From NCBI GenBank assembly GCA_025454405.1, contig JALOON010000029.1, positions 62,001 to 126,000 on the forward strand: DNA of 64,000 nucleotides, written 5' to 3'. Below the pieces are notes generated by a model. It was not told the origin of the DNA and searched no databases. It saw only the letters and a program-made list of their open reading frames with translations. Of the stretch, positions 27,557 to 48,450 are shown piece by piece (position 1 is the first letter of the stretch; every line of letters begins with the position of its first letter). This DNA is from Oscillatoriaceae cyanobacterium Prado104 (GTDB lineage: Bacteria; Cyanobacteriota; Cyanobacteriia; Cyanobacteriales; Microcoleaceae). Made by a program: the position numbers and the translations under genes.

Positions 27557-27629
27557 GGCAGTGTAGCTTAGTGGTAAAGCGATCGCCTCTTCAAGGCGAG
27601 AGACAACCGTTTGATTCGGTTCGCTGCCA
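27557..27629 (+). tRNA. tRNA-like gene, anticodon loop TCTTCAA (nominal Glu-UUC)
   Basis: The cloverleaf reads: acceptor GGCAGTG with CGCTGCC (one G-U), TA, D arm GCTT/AAGC with loop AGTGGTA, two linker bases GA, anticodon stem TCGCC/GGCGA with loop TCTTCAA, variable GAGAC, T arm AACCG/CGGTT with loop TTTGATT, discriminator A. Oddities: position 33 is C instead of U, position 26 has an extra base, and a HIP1 octamer GCGATCGC spans the D/anticodon junction (27579-27586). No CCA is encoded. It may be a divergent tRNA or a relic. Confidence 0.55.
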
Positions 27630-27631
27630 CC

Positions 27632-27704
27632 GGCAACGTAGTTTAAAATGATAGAATTCCCTGGAGCATACCGGGAGATGCGGGTGCAATTCCCGCCGTT
27701 GCTA
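27632..27704 (+). tRNA. Second tRNA-like sequence with a short anticodon loop
   Basis: Two bases after the first, acceptor GGCAACG pairs with CGTTGCT (697-703), and the T arm GCGGG/CCCGC with loop TGCAATT is perfect. The D arm is weak (GTTT/GAAT) and its loop lacks GG. The anticodon stem CCTGG/CCGGG closes a six-base loop AGCATA instead of seven. It looks like a degenerate or non-standard tRNA. Confidence 0.4.
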
Positions 27705-34534: not shown

Positions 34535-35383
34535 TTATAACAGCTTCCGCGCTCGCAGAATCTGTTGTTGCAATTTCTCAAAACTATGTATATTTGAACG
34601 ATCGTCTTTCTCAAAAAACGCCCTCATTTTCTCCATCAATTCGATCGCCAGCGGTACGCCAAGTTGCAATTGTTCCAACACTTCCCGCTGGGCAAAAACT
34701 GCTTCCGGTTCTCCTTCTAAAATCAGTTGTCCCCGATCCATGACAAACACCCAATCAGCCCAACGGTAAATGAAATCGAGGTCGTGACTTGCTAATAAAA
34801 TAGTAGTTCCATTTGCATGAATTTGTTGCAGTCGATCGATCAGTTCTCTGGTATGCTGCGGGTCTAAATAAGCTGTAGGTTCATCTAACAGTAACAATTC
34901 CGGTTCTAGTACCATAACATCCGCGATCGACACTCGCTTTTTCTGCCCCAAACTGAGATTGTGAATCGGTCGATCTGCCAATTCAGTTAGATCGAATTGC
35001 TCGATCGCCAACTGCACCCGCTGCGCTATTTCCGATTCTGCCAATCCTAAATTGTACAATCCGTAGGAGATATCTTCTTCTACCGCAGACGCTACTAATT
35101 GATGTTCGGGATTTTGAAAGACAAGTCCGATTTGTTGGCGCAATTTCGTTATGGATTTGCGATCGTACTGAAAGGGCTTGCCTTGCCAGTATAGCTTTCC
35201 CTGTTGGGGTTGATACAGCCCATTTGCTAGCAGGAATAAGGTTGTTTTACCGCAGCCATTTTGACCGATCAGCCCGCATCTTTTGCCTGCGGGAACTTTC
35301 AGATTGAGATTTTGAATTGCCGATCGCGCGTTGCAGGGATAGGAGTAAGAAATGCGATCGAATTCGAGAATCGGTTGCGACAT
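34535..35383 (-). CDS. cbiO: Energy-coupling factor ATPase CbiO
   Basis: The 282-residue ABC ATPase has Walker A GLIGQNGCGKTT (37-48), Q-loop LVFQNPEHQLVA typical of CbiO/EcfA, signature LSLGQKKR and Walker B LLLLDEP. With CbiMNQ it powers cobalt uptake. The start is ATG 35383 (MSQPILEFDR); the longer frame to 35446 reads a repeat. It is separated from cbiMNQ by a riboswitch, an unknown gene and a methyltransferase. Confidence 0.9.
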   Translation of the reverse strand: MSQPILEFDRISYSYPCNARSAIQNLNLKVPAGKRCGLIGQNGCGKTTLFLLANGLYQPQQGKLYWQGKPFQYDRKSITKLRQQIGLVFQNPEHQLVASAVEEDISYGLYNLGLAESEIAQRVQLAIEQFDLTELADRPIHNLSLGQKKRVSIADVMVLEPELLLLDEPTAYLDPQHTRELIDRLQQIHANGTTILLASHDLDFIYRWADWVFVMDRGQLILEGEPEAVFAQREVLEQLQLGVPLAIELMEKMRAFFEKDDRSNIHSFEKLQQQILRARKLL

Positions 35384-35498
35384 ATATTGGGATTTGAGAT
35401 TCGAGGATTGGGAATGGGTAACAGAGAATTGGGAATTGGAATTCAAATTTAAACATCGAGCTTAAACAAATCGAAAACCGATTTTCGATTGTGTTTTT

Positions 35499-36365
35499 TC
35501 AGCTTTTATCTACTTTTGACAACTGCCAAAGTTCAATTTCATAACAGAGATGTTTTTCAAAAAGTTGGCTGGCTGCCAATCCTTCTACAACTAACTTTTT
35601 GAACCAGCGCCGAAATATCCAGCGCAACAATTTGTAAACGGGCAAAACCGCGATCGCAATTAAATCTCCAACATAAATCATGGTGTTCAATCCAAACCTG
35701 CGGAAAGAATCGACATACAGGTCGATCGTCGGTACAATGTGAGCGGAAATATCCTCTGTTTTTACTAAAGTGAATCCAGCTTGCGACAATGCAGCGCGAA
35801 GTTCTGCAACAACATGACAATTAGAGAACATTCCCTCTGTATAGTTAGCATCCGATCGCATCATATCTGCAATTAGCAAGTAGCCACCAGGATTGAGAAT
35901 ACCAGCAGCACAAGAAGCAATATCAACAGCGGCCATATATTGACTGCTTTCGCTCAACAAAATTAGATCGTAAGAATGGGTTGCTTTGAAGTTTTCAAAC
36001 TTCGTGAGGTGGAAAATTGCCCGATCGCCCGTATACTTGAGAAACCGCTCTTTTTGAAACGGATCGGGTGCTAGTCCTTCTACTGTAAAACCCCGATCGA
36101 GCAAATAAGCTGCATTTCCGCCAATCCCGCACCCAACATCCAACACGGTTTTGATATTTTGGGGAATAAAATCTAACAGTTTGGCTGTATAAGCTTCCTG
36201 GGCGACACGCAATTGTCCGATGGTTAATTCGACAGCGGGAACAGGTAGAGACTCCCAATAACCGTAGTGCAGGTAGGGCGATTCTGTCAGCCCTAAATAG
36301 TAATTCAGCGCTGCATTTTGGTAGCGAGTTACTTTGGAAACAGAAATTGATTTTGAATTCGACAT
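35499..36365 (-). CDS. SAM-dependent methyltransferase in a B12-riboswitch transcript
   Basis: The 288-residue protein, started at ATG 36365 (MSNSKSISVS), has class I motifs VLDVGCGIGGNA and NPGGYLLIADMM and a hydrophobic, Arg/Lys-rich segment near the C-terminus (VLPVYKLLRWIFRR) that may bind a membrane. The substrate is unknown. It starts 19 bases after the preceding unknown gene, which follows a cobalamin riboswitch, and precedes cbiO. A role in corrin-related metabolism is inference from position only. Confidence 0.8.
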   Translation of the reverse strand: MSNSKSISVSKVTRYQNAALNYYLGLTESPYLHYGYWESLPVPAVELTIGQLRVAQEAYTAKLLDFIPQNIKTVLDVGCGIGGNAAYLLDRGFTVEGLAPDPFQKERFLKYTGDRAIFHLTKFENFKATHSYDLILLSESSQYMAAVDIASCAAGILNPGGYLLIADMMRSDANYTEGMFSNCHVVAELRAALSQAGFTLVKTEDISAHIVPTIDLYVDSFRRFGLNTMIYVGDLIAIAVLPVYKLLRWIFRRWFKKLVVEGLAASQLFEKHLCYEIELWQLSKVDKS

Positions 36366-36384: not shown

Positions 36385-36825
36385 TTAGGATTGTGGGGAG
36401 GTTTGAAATTCTTCCCAGCGCTTGCATACTTGTTCGTAACACATAACAGGAGAAATTGCCAAATTTTGCAACAAATTGATATCAATCTGACCGTTGCCGA
36501 TCGACAAAAACACAATTGCTCGATCGGGTTCGTAGGTAGCAAGGATCTGGAGCAAATTTGAAACAGTTGTTTTCTCTATTTCTAATTTTTGTAAATAAGC
36601 ATTTGCTTCTAATTGGGCAATAAATTCTAGATCGTACCTTACATTATCGATGCTCCAATTAATATAGCAGTCGATAGAAGTCTTTATTTTGCAAACAACA
36701 ATGCCTCTGCCTAAATTCAAAAAACCATTCCAAGCAGTATGTCCGATCGACAAAATATTCTGCTGAATAAACAAGTTTTGCCAGTAGCCAAAACTACCCT
36801 GCCAAACACTATCTTCGATTCGCAT
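36385..36825 (-). CDS. Unknown protein downstream of a cobalamin riboswitch
   Basis: The 146-residue protein (MRIEDSVWQGSFGYWQ) has no signal peptide, no obvious membrane segment and no known motif. Four cysteines are scattered. GGAAAG precedes ATG 36825. It is the first full-size gene after the riboswitch at 36955-37075 and appears to be in one unit with the methyltransferase. Confidence 0.6.
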   Translation of the reverse strand: MRIEDSVWQGSFGYWQNLFIQQNILSIGHTAWNGFLNLGRGIVVCKIKTSIDCYINWSIDNVRYDLEFIAQLEANAYLQKLEIEKTTVSNLLQILATYEPDRAIVFLSIGNGQIDINLLQNLAISPVMCYEQVCKRWEEFQTSPQS

Positions 36826-36855: not shown

Positions 36856-36921
36856 TTATTGTCTAGCCGGAAAAGGAGGGCAACAGCAGATTAATTGTAA
36901 AAATATCGAACTAACCATCAT
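36856..36921 (-). CDS. 21-codon cysteine-rich mini-ORF after the riboswitch
   Basis: MMVSSIFLQLICCCPPFPAR then Q and stop. GCGAGGTATGG directly before ATG matches, nearly base for base, the block before cbiM (GCGAGGTACGG), so the ribosome binding site and its riboswitch context are conserved. Three adjacent Cys codons and a hydrophobic core stand out. It may be a real small protein, a leader peptide, or a relic left after duplication of the cbiM leader. Confidence 0.45.
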   Translation of the reverse strand: MMVSSIFLQLICCCPPFPARQ

Positions 36922-36954
36922 CCATACCTCGCAGATGAAAAACAACAGGCAAAC

Positions 36955-37075
36955 AAATCGGCGGGCATCCTGACTCAGAGATTTCAGTATCTCATTACAG
37001 TTGCGGGACAGCGCCGGATTTGCACCGAACTTTCCCCCTTACGTCTGATGGCTGTTTCCCATCAGAGCCGATCGA
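36955..37075 (-). promoter_or_regulatory. Cobalamin riboswitch (second copy)
   Basis: On the minus strand the conserved core GGTGCAAATCCGGCGCTGTC, followed by CCGCAACTGT, and the GATGCCCGCCGAT B12 box are all present, with a GATGGGAAACAGCCATC hairpin upstream. It controls the mini-ORF, the unknown gene and the methyltransferase, and possibly cbiO. Confidence 0.9.
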
Positions 37076-37286
37076 TATACGGGGATAGTAACACTATTTT
37101 GGATATTTGACAAAAAACTCAATATGTTACCGAGAACTCCATAATTATGCAATTAATAAAAATTGCCACAGCTTCAGTTGCATCAAAACTGGTTGCTGTT
37201 CGCCAATTTACTACCCCTCCCCGCCGAGGATCGGCGTTACCAGGCAAAGCCTGGTAACGAATAGAACGAGTAGATTTTTAATGAAT

Positions 37287-38087
37287 TTAGCGTTGAAACA
37301 CCGCACTTAACAATGTTAAAACCGTGCAGCCGATCGCAGCTTCTAATGTATATCTTCGCGAAGGTTTGTAAAGATAAGAATTCCAAACTCGCAATTCTCC
37401 CTGAAAGCCGCGCGATGCCAAACTTAGCGAAACTTGACGGTAATTTTCCAAAGTTCGCTGCAGCAGTTGTCCGATTAAAATGCTTAAACTGCGCATTCCC
37501 AATTTCCAAGTACGGTAGCCGCTGCGCGAGTTTTGCGCTATCCAAAGTTCGTCTGCAATTGCCAATAAACTAAAAATAAACCGATACATCAACAACAAAA
37601 GTTCTACAATTAATACCGGACACCGCCACTGTCTCAAAACCTGCAAGATTTCGGTAAACGGTACTGTTAGCAGGATGAAATACATGCAGCTTGTCGAGGC
37701 TAAAGTTCGGGGAAACAACAGGCTAGCTTGGTAGATGCCAGCGCGACTCGCGTAAATATATAAATTGCCGAAACTCATGCCCCAATTTTGCCAAACATCC
37801 CACTGAATTTGATGGATGCGATCGCCCCCAATTCCCGCTACAATCAAAGCAGGCAAACTTGTTAGCAAAAATAACATTGGCAGCGATAGCAACCGCAGGT
37901 AAAGTTTCGCGGGAATGCCTGCATAAATTACAGTCCAAACTGCCAGCCAAATAGCTATTAAAAGTTGGACGATCGCCTGAGAAACTAGAGAGAGAATTAA
38001 CAGGGCGATCGCAAACAATAACTTGTGAGTTGGCGGCAACTTGCGCAAGCGATTTGTGTAAGCCAAACTGTCAATCTGATGGTTCAT
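37287..38087 (-). CDS. cbiQ: Cobalt ECF transporter membrane subunit CbiQ
   Basis: The 266-residue protein has about five to six transmembrane segments and the T-component coupling motifs around LYIYASRAGIY and SLSLASRGF (Ala-Arg-Gly). It couples ATP hydrolysis by CbiO to cobalt passage through CbiM. Its start overlaps the cbiN stop by four bases (ATGA), showing translational coupling. It is the last gene of the cbiMNQ unit; cbiO is 1.9 kb further on. Confidence 0.88.
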   Translation of the reverse strand: MNHQIDSLAYTNRLRKLPPTHKLLFAIALLILSLVSQAIVQLLIAIWLAVWTVIYAGIPAKLYLRLLSLPMLFLLTSLPALIVAGIGGDRIHQIQWDVWQNWGMSFGNLYIYASRAGIYQASLLFPRTLASTSCMYFILLTVPFTEILQVLRQWRCPVLIVELLLLMYRFIFSLLAIADELWIAQNSRSGYRTWKLGMRSLSILIGQLLQRTLENYRQVSLSLASRGFQGELRVWNSYLYKPSRRYTLEAAIGCTVLTLLSAVFQR

Positions 38088-38416
38088 TTTGGCATTGATT
38101 CACCATCGGATTTTTGTCGCTGCGATCGACCTTTGTACAGCCCGATGACATACCCAATTATGCCTGCACCCAATGCTGCTTGAGATGCAAACAACAAACT
38201 TTCTATTTCGCCGCTAGCAGGCTCAAAAAAGTGACTGAACCAAGGTTGATAATCGGGTTTAATTTCAGTAATTGCCTGTTCTGCTTGACCGTCCGATCCG
38301 CCGTATTCACCGCGCACAAAAACTAGAGGAATTACAGCTAGGAAAATCACAGCAATTATTAACATCCAATTTTGTTGGGAAGTAGCTTGCTGGGGTTTGG
38401 CAGGTTTGCGATCCAC
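38084..38416 (-). CDS. cbiN: Cobalt transport protein CbiN
   Basis: The 110-residue protein starts at GTG 38416. It has two transmembrane segments (about 17-36 and 75-95) flanking a periplasmic loop (GSDGQAEQAITEIKPDYQPW), the CbiN pattern. It assists CbiM in cobalt loading. It lies three bases after the cbiM stop and overlaps cbiQ. Confidence 0.85.
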   Translation of the reverse strand: MDRKPAKPQQATSQQNWMLIIAVIFLAVIPLVFVRGEYGGSDGQAEQAITEIKPDYQPWFSHFFEPASGEIESLLFASQAALGAGIIGYVIGLYKGRSQRQKSDGESMPK

Positions 38417-38419
38417 GGT

Positions 38420-39178
38420 TTATGACTCCTGTTTCAATAATTTCAAAGTTTCTAACTCTTGCCTGCCGTAAGAATGCAGCCAATTCCAGATCAATACAGT
38501 CAGCAATCCTTCGCTGATAGCAAGGGGTACTTGAGTAATGGCAAAAATGCTGGCAAACTTGATAAACGAAGCCAGAAAACCGCCGCTGGCTGCGGGAAAA
38601 GCTAGGGCTAATTGAATCGAAGTCGTTAGATAAGTCAGCAAATCCGCGATCGCGGCAGCACAAAAAATAGCTACTCGCTGCTTGCCGGTTCGCAGCAGCA
38701 ATCGATAGATAAAATAGGCAGCAAACGGACCGACAATTGCCATAGAAAACATATTAGCGCCCAGCGTAGTCAGCCCGCCGTGCGCTAGCAAAATTGCTTG
38801 AAAAAGCAGTACCAAAGCGCCGAGTACCGCCATCACAGAAGGGCCGAATAAAATCGCGCCCAAACCCGTACCCGTCGGGTGAGAACAACTTCCAGTTACC
38901 GAGGGAATTTTTAAAGCAGAAAGCACAAAAGCAAACGCACCGGCTAAAGCTAACAATAATTTAAGTTCCGGGTGTTCTTTAGTAATCCGCGCGATCGAAC
39001 GCAATCCCAACACAAAAAAAGGTAGCGCCACCATCCACCAAAATGCCGCCCATTGCACCGGCAAAAAACCTTCCGAAATGTGCATGGCTGCCGCTGGAGT
39101 TGCCGAAGCTAAAACAAGATAACAACTCAAGCCAGCGATCGATCCCAGGCTGACAAATTTTCGATTTCGCGCCTTCAT
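38420..39178 (-). CDS. cbiM: Cobalt ECF transporter S-component CbiM
   Basis: The protein has 252 residues from ATG 39178 ([10 protein letters not shown]). After a signal-like segment the mature N-terminus reads MHISEGFLP, the conserved metal site of CbiM, and [13 protein letters not shown] follows. About seven hydrophobic segments are present. GCGAGGTA lies upstream. The longer frame to 39226 runs into the B12 box of the riboswitch and is rejected. Confidence 0.93.
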
Positions 39179-39213
39179 TCCGTACCTCGCAGATGAGACT
39201 TTTTTAACTAACG

Positions 39214-39362
<149 letters not shown>

Positions 39363-39471
39363 TCGTTAATCTTGCATTATAGTCGATCGAGCAAATCTCG
39401 ATCGATATTTTCCCAAAAGGTCGATCGGAAAAACATCTGCGTTTATCCCCGTTAATCTGCCCGATCTGCGG

Positions 39472-46725: not shown

Positions 46726-48450
46726 TTAAAACAGAAAATATCGCTGCGCCATCGGCAAAACAGTTGCCGGTTCGCAAATCAACAATTGCCCGTCCGCCCT
46801 CACTTCATAAGTTTCCGGATCTACCTCCATTTCCGGTAAATAATCGTTGAGTTTCATGTCTCGTTTGCTAATTTGCCGCGTCCCAGAAACCGCCACAGTT
46901 TGCTTTTGCAAACCTAGCTGTTTGGCAATATCTCGATCGCCCGCAGCCTGCGAAATAAATGTCAAAGAAGTTGCACCAATTGCGCCTCCAAAACTGCCAA
47001 ACATCGGCCGCATGTGCACTGGCTGAGGCGTTGGAATGCTGGCGTTAGCATCTCCCATTTGCGCGAAAGCGATCGCCCCTCCTTTAATTACCAATTCCGG
47101 TTTTACCCCAAAAAATGCCGGCCGCCACAAACACAAATCTGCCAATTTTCCCTCTTCCACCGAACCGACATACTGACTGATTCCGTGAGTAATTGCGGGA
47201 TTAATCGTGTATTTCGCAACGTACCGCTTCGCCCGAAAATTATCTGGTTCGCTGTTAGTAGAACCCGCATTCTCCCCGTTCAAAATTCCTCTTTGCACCT
47301 TCATTTTATGTGCCGTTTGCCAAGTCCGAATAATCACTTCCCCAACCCTTCCCATCGCCTGCGAGTCGGAAGAAATCATGCTAAACGCGCCCAAATCGTG
47401 CAAAATATCTTCAGCAGCAATAGTCTCTCTTCTAATTCTCGATTCCGCAAAAGCCACATCTTCAGGAATCCCCCGATCTAAATGGTGGCACACCATCAAC
47501 ATATCTAAATGTTCTTCTAAAGTGTTGACAGTGTAAGGGCGAGTCGGGTTAGTAGACGAAGGCAAAACATTAGCTTGCCCGCAAACTTTAATAATATCCG
47601 GTGCGTGTCCGCCACCCGCACCTTCTGTGTGGTAAGTGTGGATGGCGCGATTTTTAAATGCAGCAATTGTAGCTTCCACAAATCCCGCTTCGTTGAGAGT
47701 ATCCGTGTGAATTGCCACTTGCACGTCGTATTCGTCAGCTACACTCAAACAAGTGTCGATCGTTGCTGGTGTAGTTCCCCAATCTTCGTGCAGTTTCAAA
47801 CCCATTGCACCGGCCAATATTTGTTCGACTAATCCTTGGGGTTGGCTGCTATTTCCTTTACCTAAAAACCCGAGATTTACCGGAAAAGCATCGGCGGCTT
47901 GCAGCATTCGATATATGTGCCAAGGGCCGGGAGTGCAAGTTGTGGCGTTTGTACCCGTCGCCGGGCCTGTTCCTCCTCCGATCATTGTGGTGATTCCAGA
48001 GGCGATCGCGACTTCGATTTGTTGCGGGCAAATAAAGTGAATGTGAGTGTCAATTCCGCCTGCTGTAAGAATCATTCCTTCGCCGGCAATGACTTCTGTA
48101 CCGGGTCCGATAATAATATCTACTCTATCTTGAATGTAAGGATTTCCGGCTTTGCCAATTTTTAAAATTTTGCCGTCTTTAATGCCGATATCTGCTTTGA
48201 CAATTCCCCACCAATCCAAGATTAAAGCATTAGTAATTACCGTGTCAACTGCGCCATCATTATTAGAAATCGGCGACTGTCCCATGCCGTCGCGAATTAC
48301 CTTACCGCCGCCGAATTTGACTTCATCGCCGTAGGTTGTCAAGTCTCGTTCGACTTCTATTAACAATTCTGTATCGGCCAAACGCACGCGATCGCCCGTT
48401 GTCGGTCCGAAGGTTTCCGCGTAAGCGCGGCGGCTCATTCTATAAGTCAT
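46726..48450 (-). CDS. ureC: Urease alpha (catalytic) subunit
   Basis: The 574-residue protein is a full-length UreC. Nickel ligands are visible in [10 protein letters not shown] and in [10 protein letters not shown]; the carbamylated Lys is in [12 protein letters not shown], and the mobile flap Cys-His is in [10 protein letters not shown]. It hydrolyses urea to ammonia and carbamate. The first ATG ([12 protein letters not shown]) is used; ATG 48438 is also possible. It is separated from ureDAB by two GT61 genes, about 3.6 kb. Confidence 0.97.

Follow-up and report, generated by a model that had tools for sequence, protein, structure and literature searches.

A ribosome binding site held in P13 and its loop, L13, is a known translational design among cobalamin riboswitches. 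In M. tuberculosis, the riboswitch upstream of ppe2 occludes the start of an upstream open reading frame (uORF), uPPE2, that is partly conserved, and expression of ppe2 requires translation of this uORF, mainly through termination and re-initiation (Kipkorir et al. 2024, PMC11260477). In Anabaena sp. PCC 7120, the alr4027-btuB2 operon lies under a cobalamin riboswitch, is induced by cobalt starvation with strong transcript-level effects, and begins with a gene called a putative metal-binding protein (PMC10878165). The part of that report on which we draw makes no mention of a leader ORF, and the transporter is of the Btu type rather than CbiMNQO.

The window analysed here, a stretch of 64,000 nucleotides from Oscillatoriaceae cyanobacterium Prado104, carries a locus that resembles both an ECF-type CbiMNQO importer under cobalamin control and the ppe2 arrangement. 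All four importer subunits are present, each scoring above its curated NCBIfam cut-off, and they are governed by two cobalamin riboswitches. In contrast to the usual CbiMNQO operon, the genes are split. The first riboswitch precedes cbiMNQ, and cbiO follows a short leader ORF, a gene that we call X, and a methyltransferase gene under the second. As in ppe2, the regulated operon is preceded by a short, poorly conserved uORF whose ribosome site lies in P13/L13 of the riboswitch, here the second one. The features, in their order along the minus strand, are as follows.

39201..39377, minus strand: cobalamin riboswitch 1, aptamer, before cbiM (RF00174, 51.1 bits)
38420..39178, minus strand: cbiM, starting at P13 of riboswitch 1 (TIGR00123, 303.3 bits, cut-off 184.15)
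38084..38416, minus strand: cbiN (TIGR01165, 111.4 bits, cut-off 104.85)
37287..38087, minus strand: cbiQ (TIGR02454, 156.8 bits, cut-off 111.8)
37085..37113, minus strand: sigma-70-like promoter of the second unit, TTGTCA-17-TACTAT (consensus scan and same-genus comparison)
36943..37087, minus strand: cobalamin riboswitch 2, aptamer (RF00174, 61.5 bits)
36919..36937, minus strand: P13 hairpin, CAUCUG-CGAGGUA-UGGAUG (sequence; pairing register over about 130 loci)
36856..36921, minus strand: 21-codon leader ORF, MMVSSIFLQLICCCPPFPARQ followed by a stop (sequence; same-genus comparison)
36385..36825, minus strand: X, 146 aa, CcmS-fold protein of the cobalamin/cobalt regulon
35499..36362, minus strand: class I SAM-dependent methyltransferase, 287 aa (PF13489, 37.5 bits, cut-off 27)
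34535..35446, minus strand: cbiO, ATPase of the cobalt ECF importer (TIGR01166, 222.3 bits, cut-off 211.8; likely ATG start near 35383)

A split cobalt-uptake locus and its second riboswitch

The cbiO gene encodes the ATPase that completes the CbiMNQO importer whose cbiMNQ genes adjoin directly upstream under riboswitch 1. The second unit therefore belongs to cobalt uptake, and in the gene order X and the methyltransferase separate the membrane components of a single importer from its ATPase. A sequence-only reading of this DNA had given the riboswitch core, the 21-codon ORF, the 146-residue ORF and the methyltransferase correctly, all on the same strand. Its view that no downstream gene has a known role in B12 was incomplete, as the third of these genes is cbiO, which it missed, and cbiMNQ with riboswitch 1 lie directly upstream. 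In another locus (L114) the genes form a single run, riboswitch-cbiM-cbiN-cobW-DUF1636-X-MTase-cbiQ-cbiO. The genome to which the window belongs has metH, and a search of it for metE gave no match; together these point to a probable dependence on a cobamide for methionine synthesis.

Riboswitch 2 exceeds the RF00174 gathering score of 31.5 by a wide margin (61.5 bits, E 8.7e-13) and is one of three cobalamin riboswitches in this genome. In the third (L034:4307-6169, contig C77), a DUF1636 gene starts directly at P13 and is followed by cobW. The P13 hairpin of riboswitch 2 holds a GAGG ribosome site in its loop and the first ATG of the 21-codon ORF in its 3' arm, placing the start of this ORF inside the expression platform. 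In the register with a seven-nucleotide loop, each of the four inner pairs is of standard type in 88% of about 130 cyanobacterial riboswitch loci, with exchanges, and most of these loci have their start codon 10 or 13 nucleotides from the start of the loop. Riboswitch 2, with its CGAGGUA loop and stem pairs that are kept across these loci, thus has the features of a translational expression platform. We infer that L5 pairs with L13 in riboswitch 2; L5 (CCCGCA) is invariant, leaving no covariation with L13 to be observed. Minimum-energy folding of the leader in the window did no better than folding of shuffled sequences.

A promoter consensus scan alone returned no more sites than in shuffled sequence. 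The TTGTCA and TACTAT hexamers at the aptamer's 5' end, and their spacing of 17, are kept in same-genus relatives, so that the second unit probably has its own transcript.

We propose, with a probability of roughly 0.6, that B12 represses a cobalt-uptake locus split in two, of which this unit is the second half, and that the leader ORF serves as a landing pad for ribosomes. Transcription from the promoter just upstream would yield an mRNA carrying the cobalamin riboswitch, the leader ORF, X, the methyltransferase and cbiO. With B12 in short supply, the P13 loop with its GAGG Shine-Dalgarno sequence would be free and ribosomes would load, translate the leader ORF and be delivered to the start of X, 30 nucleotides past the leader stop; CbiO would be made and the CbiMNQO importer completed. 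When B12 is plentiful, the aptamer would dock on L13 and hide the ribosome site, and the unit would be off, an OFF control that we predict from the architecture of the riboswitch. The leader would act much as in M. tuberculosis ppe2 except for the part of Rho, and its peptide sequence would matter little. The ppe2 case rests on experiments; for the locus in the window, translation of the leader, re-initiation at X, and the roles of X and the methyltransferase are predictions from sequence. On this evidence the unit would belong to a known kind of cobalt locus, repressed by B12. Its less ordinary elements are X and the leader ORF, the latter part of a wide cyanobacterial pattern.

Leader ORFs across cyanobacteria and their proposed coupling to the gene

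We examined 133 cyanobacterial cobalamin riboswitch loci, a sample partly chosen around X. A short ORF starts at P13 in 80 of them. Presumably about six of these are the real small gene cbtB, a family that we assign from the sequence. In 43 loci a long gene begins directly at P13 (cbiM or hupE-like genes in most cases, DUF1636 genes in some and X in two), and the remaining 10 have no clear start there. Leader ORFs occur before metE, cobW and intact DUF1636 genes (L041, L046, L241, L245) as well as before X. Among the open-access papers listed by literature searches, none described leader ORFs downstream of cobalamin riboswitches in cyanobacteria or a link between DUF1636 and cobalamin.

The short frames are open far more often than chance allows. 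After removal of similar sequences, only three of 59 non-redundant short ORFs have fewer than 12 codons compared with 42% in shuffled leaders (P=1.7e-10), in a test that does not model the tree and draws on a sample partly built around X loci. The same three are the only ones below 17 codons, against 56% in shuffled leaders (P=6e-17). Control ATGs taken from the same leaders have a share of short frames much like that of the shuffled leaders. The peptide sequence, on the other hand, is nearly free and its constraint weak. Pooled over 23 disjoint pairs, pN/pS is 0.61 versus 0.76 ± 0.09 for column-shuffled sets, 43 of 1000 of which reach the observed value (P about 0.04). A frame that is kept open while its sequence is little constrained fits a frame that needs to be translated and whose product is immaterial.

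How translation of the leader might be passed on to the gene appears to differ among loci. In ppe2 the uORF overlaps the gene (AUGA), whereas in the window the leader stop lies 30 nucleotides before X, and in eight same-genus relatives only five. No AGGA, GGAG or GAGG precedes the start of X in the window. Leader and X share 17 nucleotides in three f49 loci; this overlap and the five-nucleotide gap are as expected for coupled translation. However, many leaders elsewhere are separated from the gene by 100-500 nucleotides, and in 26 of 38 loci the gene has its own Shine-Dalgarno sequence, so re-initiation cannot be the whole story at those loci. Within the genus of the window, too, the occurrence of 8-codon frames and of gaps of 5-210 nucleotides to X indicates that coupling is not strictly kept.

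A different kind of coupling is suggested by the 18-codon leaders of metE (MMKTSxFCDWLFVGILRL* and relatives), whose reading frame ends in a sequence complementary to the ribosome site of metE, as at L088:2590-2860. In the metE leaders L088, L109, L188, L089, L115 and L120 this complementarity has z values of -2.3 to -5.1 and the partner is the best in the whole leader. Complementarity is also strong in L284, L305 and L307, the last two of which belong to another genus and show the same pairing with unrelated sequences (CUCAACUCAAC/GUUGAGUUGAG and CCUCAACUCUG/UAGAGUUGAGG). These pairings suggest that a ribosome finishing the metE leader would open the masking helix, forming a translation-relay attenuator in some lineages. 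After clustering, the helix passes the 5% level in three of 17 metE clusters (P=0.05) and in no X cluster. We therefore rejected it as a general rule and regard it, for metE leaders, as a lead.

Control through termination was also considered. Rho-dependent termination was rejected: Rho scored above the cut-off in none of 30 genomes, including that of the window, and in eight of 14 control genomes. This lack of a detectable Rho in the window genome and its relatives, along with the assignment of the regulated genes to cobalt uptake, sets the locus apart from ppe2. Intrinsic terminators between leader ORF and gene were found in none of 54 gaps with a strict finder that likewise returned none in shuffled gaps.

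These results bear on the strongest alternative, in which the short ORF is a by-product of RNA structure. P13 needs GAUG to pair with CAUC, so that an AUG is always there, and control would operate through transcript stability or premature termination. Such a reading accounts for the AUG by pairing alone. It also agrees with a frame that varies from 8 to 37 codons within one genus, with the marginal peptide constraint, and with the strong transcript-level effects in the published Anabaena case (PMC10878165). It does not explain why frames throughout the class are far longer than in shuffled leaders or after control ATGs, nor why some metE leaders have an ORF end complementary to the metE ribosome site, and the terminators or Rho that premature termination could use were not found in the 54 gaps and the genomes searched. 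We consider it unlikely.

Extended to cyanobacteria as a group, the landing-pad reading becomes more tentative, and we put it forward with somewhat less than even confidence. Many cobalamin riboswitches in these organisms, which lack a detectable Rho in the genomes tested, would control a leader ORF and not the gene itself. Translation of the leader would relay the B12 signal by re-initiation where the gene is near or, in some metE leaders, by melting of a masking helix, and X would be a new common member of the B12/cobalt regulon. If so, control by B12 in two steps, as described for a mycobacterial operon, would be a common cyanobacterial design, and its leader frames would have been overlooked by annotation.

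The leader ORF within the genus

The sequence-only reading had suggested a B12-controlled small protein or leader peptide. A leader ORF is likely, given its start in P13 and the open frames across the class; a functional Cys-rich protein, for example a cobalt-binding peptide, is improbable. All 19 same-genus leaders that we compared begin with MMV and diverge beyond it. The commonest arrangement, in eight genomes, is a 37-codon form whose stop lies five nucleotides before X. The 21-codon form of the window occurs in one other genome, and there are forms of 22 codons and of 28 codons, the latter reading into a dispersed repeat. In about four to five genomes a change in a T run ends the frame after eight codons. 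Leader-to-X distances outside the window and the eight relatives reach 210 nucleotides.

In favour of a functional protein, the MMVS(S/L) start is conserved and two or three Cys residues are present in part of the genus, and the 18-codon metE leaders contain Cys as well. However, neither the positions of the Cys residues, the length (8, 21, 22, 28 or 37 codons) nor the C-terminus is kept. The Cys cluster of the window appears in other same-genus leaders as CCC, YCC, GCC, GCY or CCW, or is absent, and the Cys-rich 21-codon form is confined to the window genome and a few relatives. Some frames, moreover, run into the dispersed repeat. Across one set of six genomes carrying the 37-codon form, the leader has a pN/pS of 0.56 and X one of 0.18. 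The sequence-only reading had itself held that a lack of codon conservation in related strains would speak against the peptide, and such conservation is absent. One same-genus genome (L052) has lost X but retains the riboswitch together with a leader ORF of 21 codons.

Two further explanations concern the origin of the unit. The sequence-only reading had offered, as a plain alternative, that riboswitch 2 is a duplicated cbiM leader that captured new genes, and it had correctly noted that the ribosome-site block CATCTGCGAGGTATGGATG (36937..36919) is nearly identical to the block before cbiM, CATCTGCGAGGTACGGAATG. However, this block is common to most cyanobacterial cobalamin riboswitches. Riboswitch 2 is only 65% identical to riboswitch 1 compared with 78-92% to the leader-ORF riboswitches of other loci and families, with which it also groups as a tree neighbour. 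It was therefore not copied from the cbiM leader, a scenario to which we give hardly any weight. It is just as improbable that the ORF is the stub of a DUF1636 gene deleted in Microcoleus from an order riboswitch-DUF1636-X-MTase like that of Gloeocapsopsis (L039/L239), as leader ORFs also precede intact DUF1636 genes, metE and cobW.

Protein X and its neighbours

Profile searches with X gave no family above cut-off, and a sequence search of the PDB gave no match. An AlphaFold model built from 35 sequences has a mean pLDDT of 85, and on this model X has a CcmS-like fold. It matches the CcmS structures 8zlh and 9iur with Foldseek E values of 2.5e-6 and 1.2e-5 and VIA Z scores of 9.4 and 9.1 over about 115 residues at 16-17% identity; the next structural match reaches only Z 4.5. 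X was rejected as CcmS itself (NF049993, 19.6 bits against a cut-off of 125), and a true CcmS is encoded on another contig of the window genome (197.2 bits). CcmS is an assembly chaperone of the beta-carboxysome (PMC11635287). X shares its fold but, unlike CcmS, lies in B12 regulons. By analogy of the modelled fold, X may act as a chaperone or adaptor.

We found X in 109 of the 339 cyanobacterial genomes searched. A same-strand cobalamin riboswitch lies upstream in 36 of 39 sampled loci, which bears out the link of this gene to B12 or cobalt that had been suspected from the window alone. A B12 box is found upstream in 70 of 79 named X loci, and five of the other nine lie behind metH. The neighbours of X include metE, DUF1636, cobW and cbiMNQO genes and, in several lineages, the same methyltransferase. 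From these associations and neighbours we assign X, as judged by genomic context, to the B12/cobalt regulon across cyanobacteria. If this is correct, the family gains its first functional setting, in cobalt/B12 supply and near methionine synthase, as well as a fold known until now from carboxysome assembly.

In L044 (6659-10941), L276, L277, L279 and L280, an X-type gene sits directly downstream of metH and has no riboswitch, a further connection between X and methionine synthase. In L036 (6669-8951), L082 and L098, a fatty-acid desaturase and a second, unrelated methyltransferase stand beside X in cobalamin-riboswitch units.

All 30 of the same-genus genomes that we searched have the methyltransferase, and about 20 have an intact X. 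Against the corrinoid protein-associated methyltransferase model CpaM (NF043040) the methyltransferase scores 33.1 bits, below the cut-off of 180. In five same-genus loci (L047, L049, L050, L051, L053), X is reduced to a C-terminal scrap, the methyltransferase is intact and cbiO is mostly so. No riboswitch was detected in the first four of these, and that of L053 is decayed. The joint decay of X and the riboswitch while the methyltransferase persists, mostly with cbiO, suggests that riboswitch 2 serves X first.

Two other features of the window were recorded. Positions 48009-48299 on the plus strand match the 5'-ureB sRNA family of Rfam with 136 bits, a match that probably reflects the antisense strand of a urease gene and not a gene for an sRNA. 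At positions 27557-27704, also on the plus strand, two tRNA-like genes are separated by three bases; the second has an unusual D-arm and scores low, at 39.9 bits.
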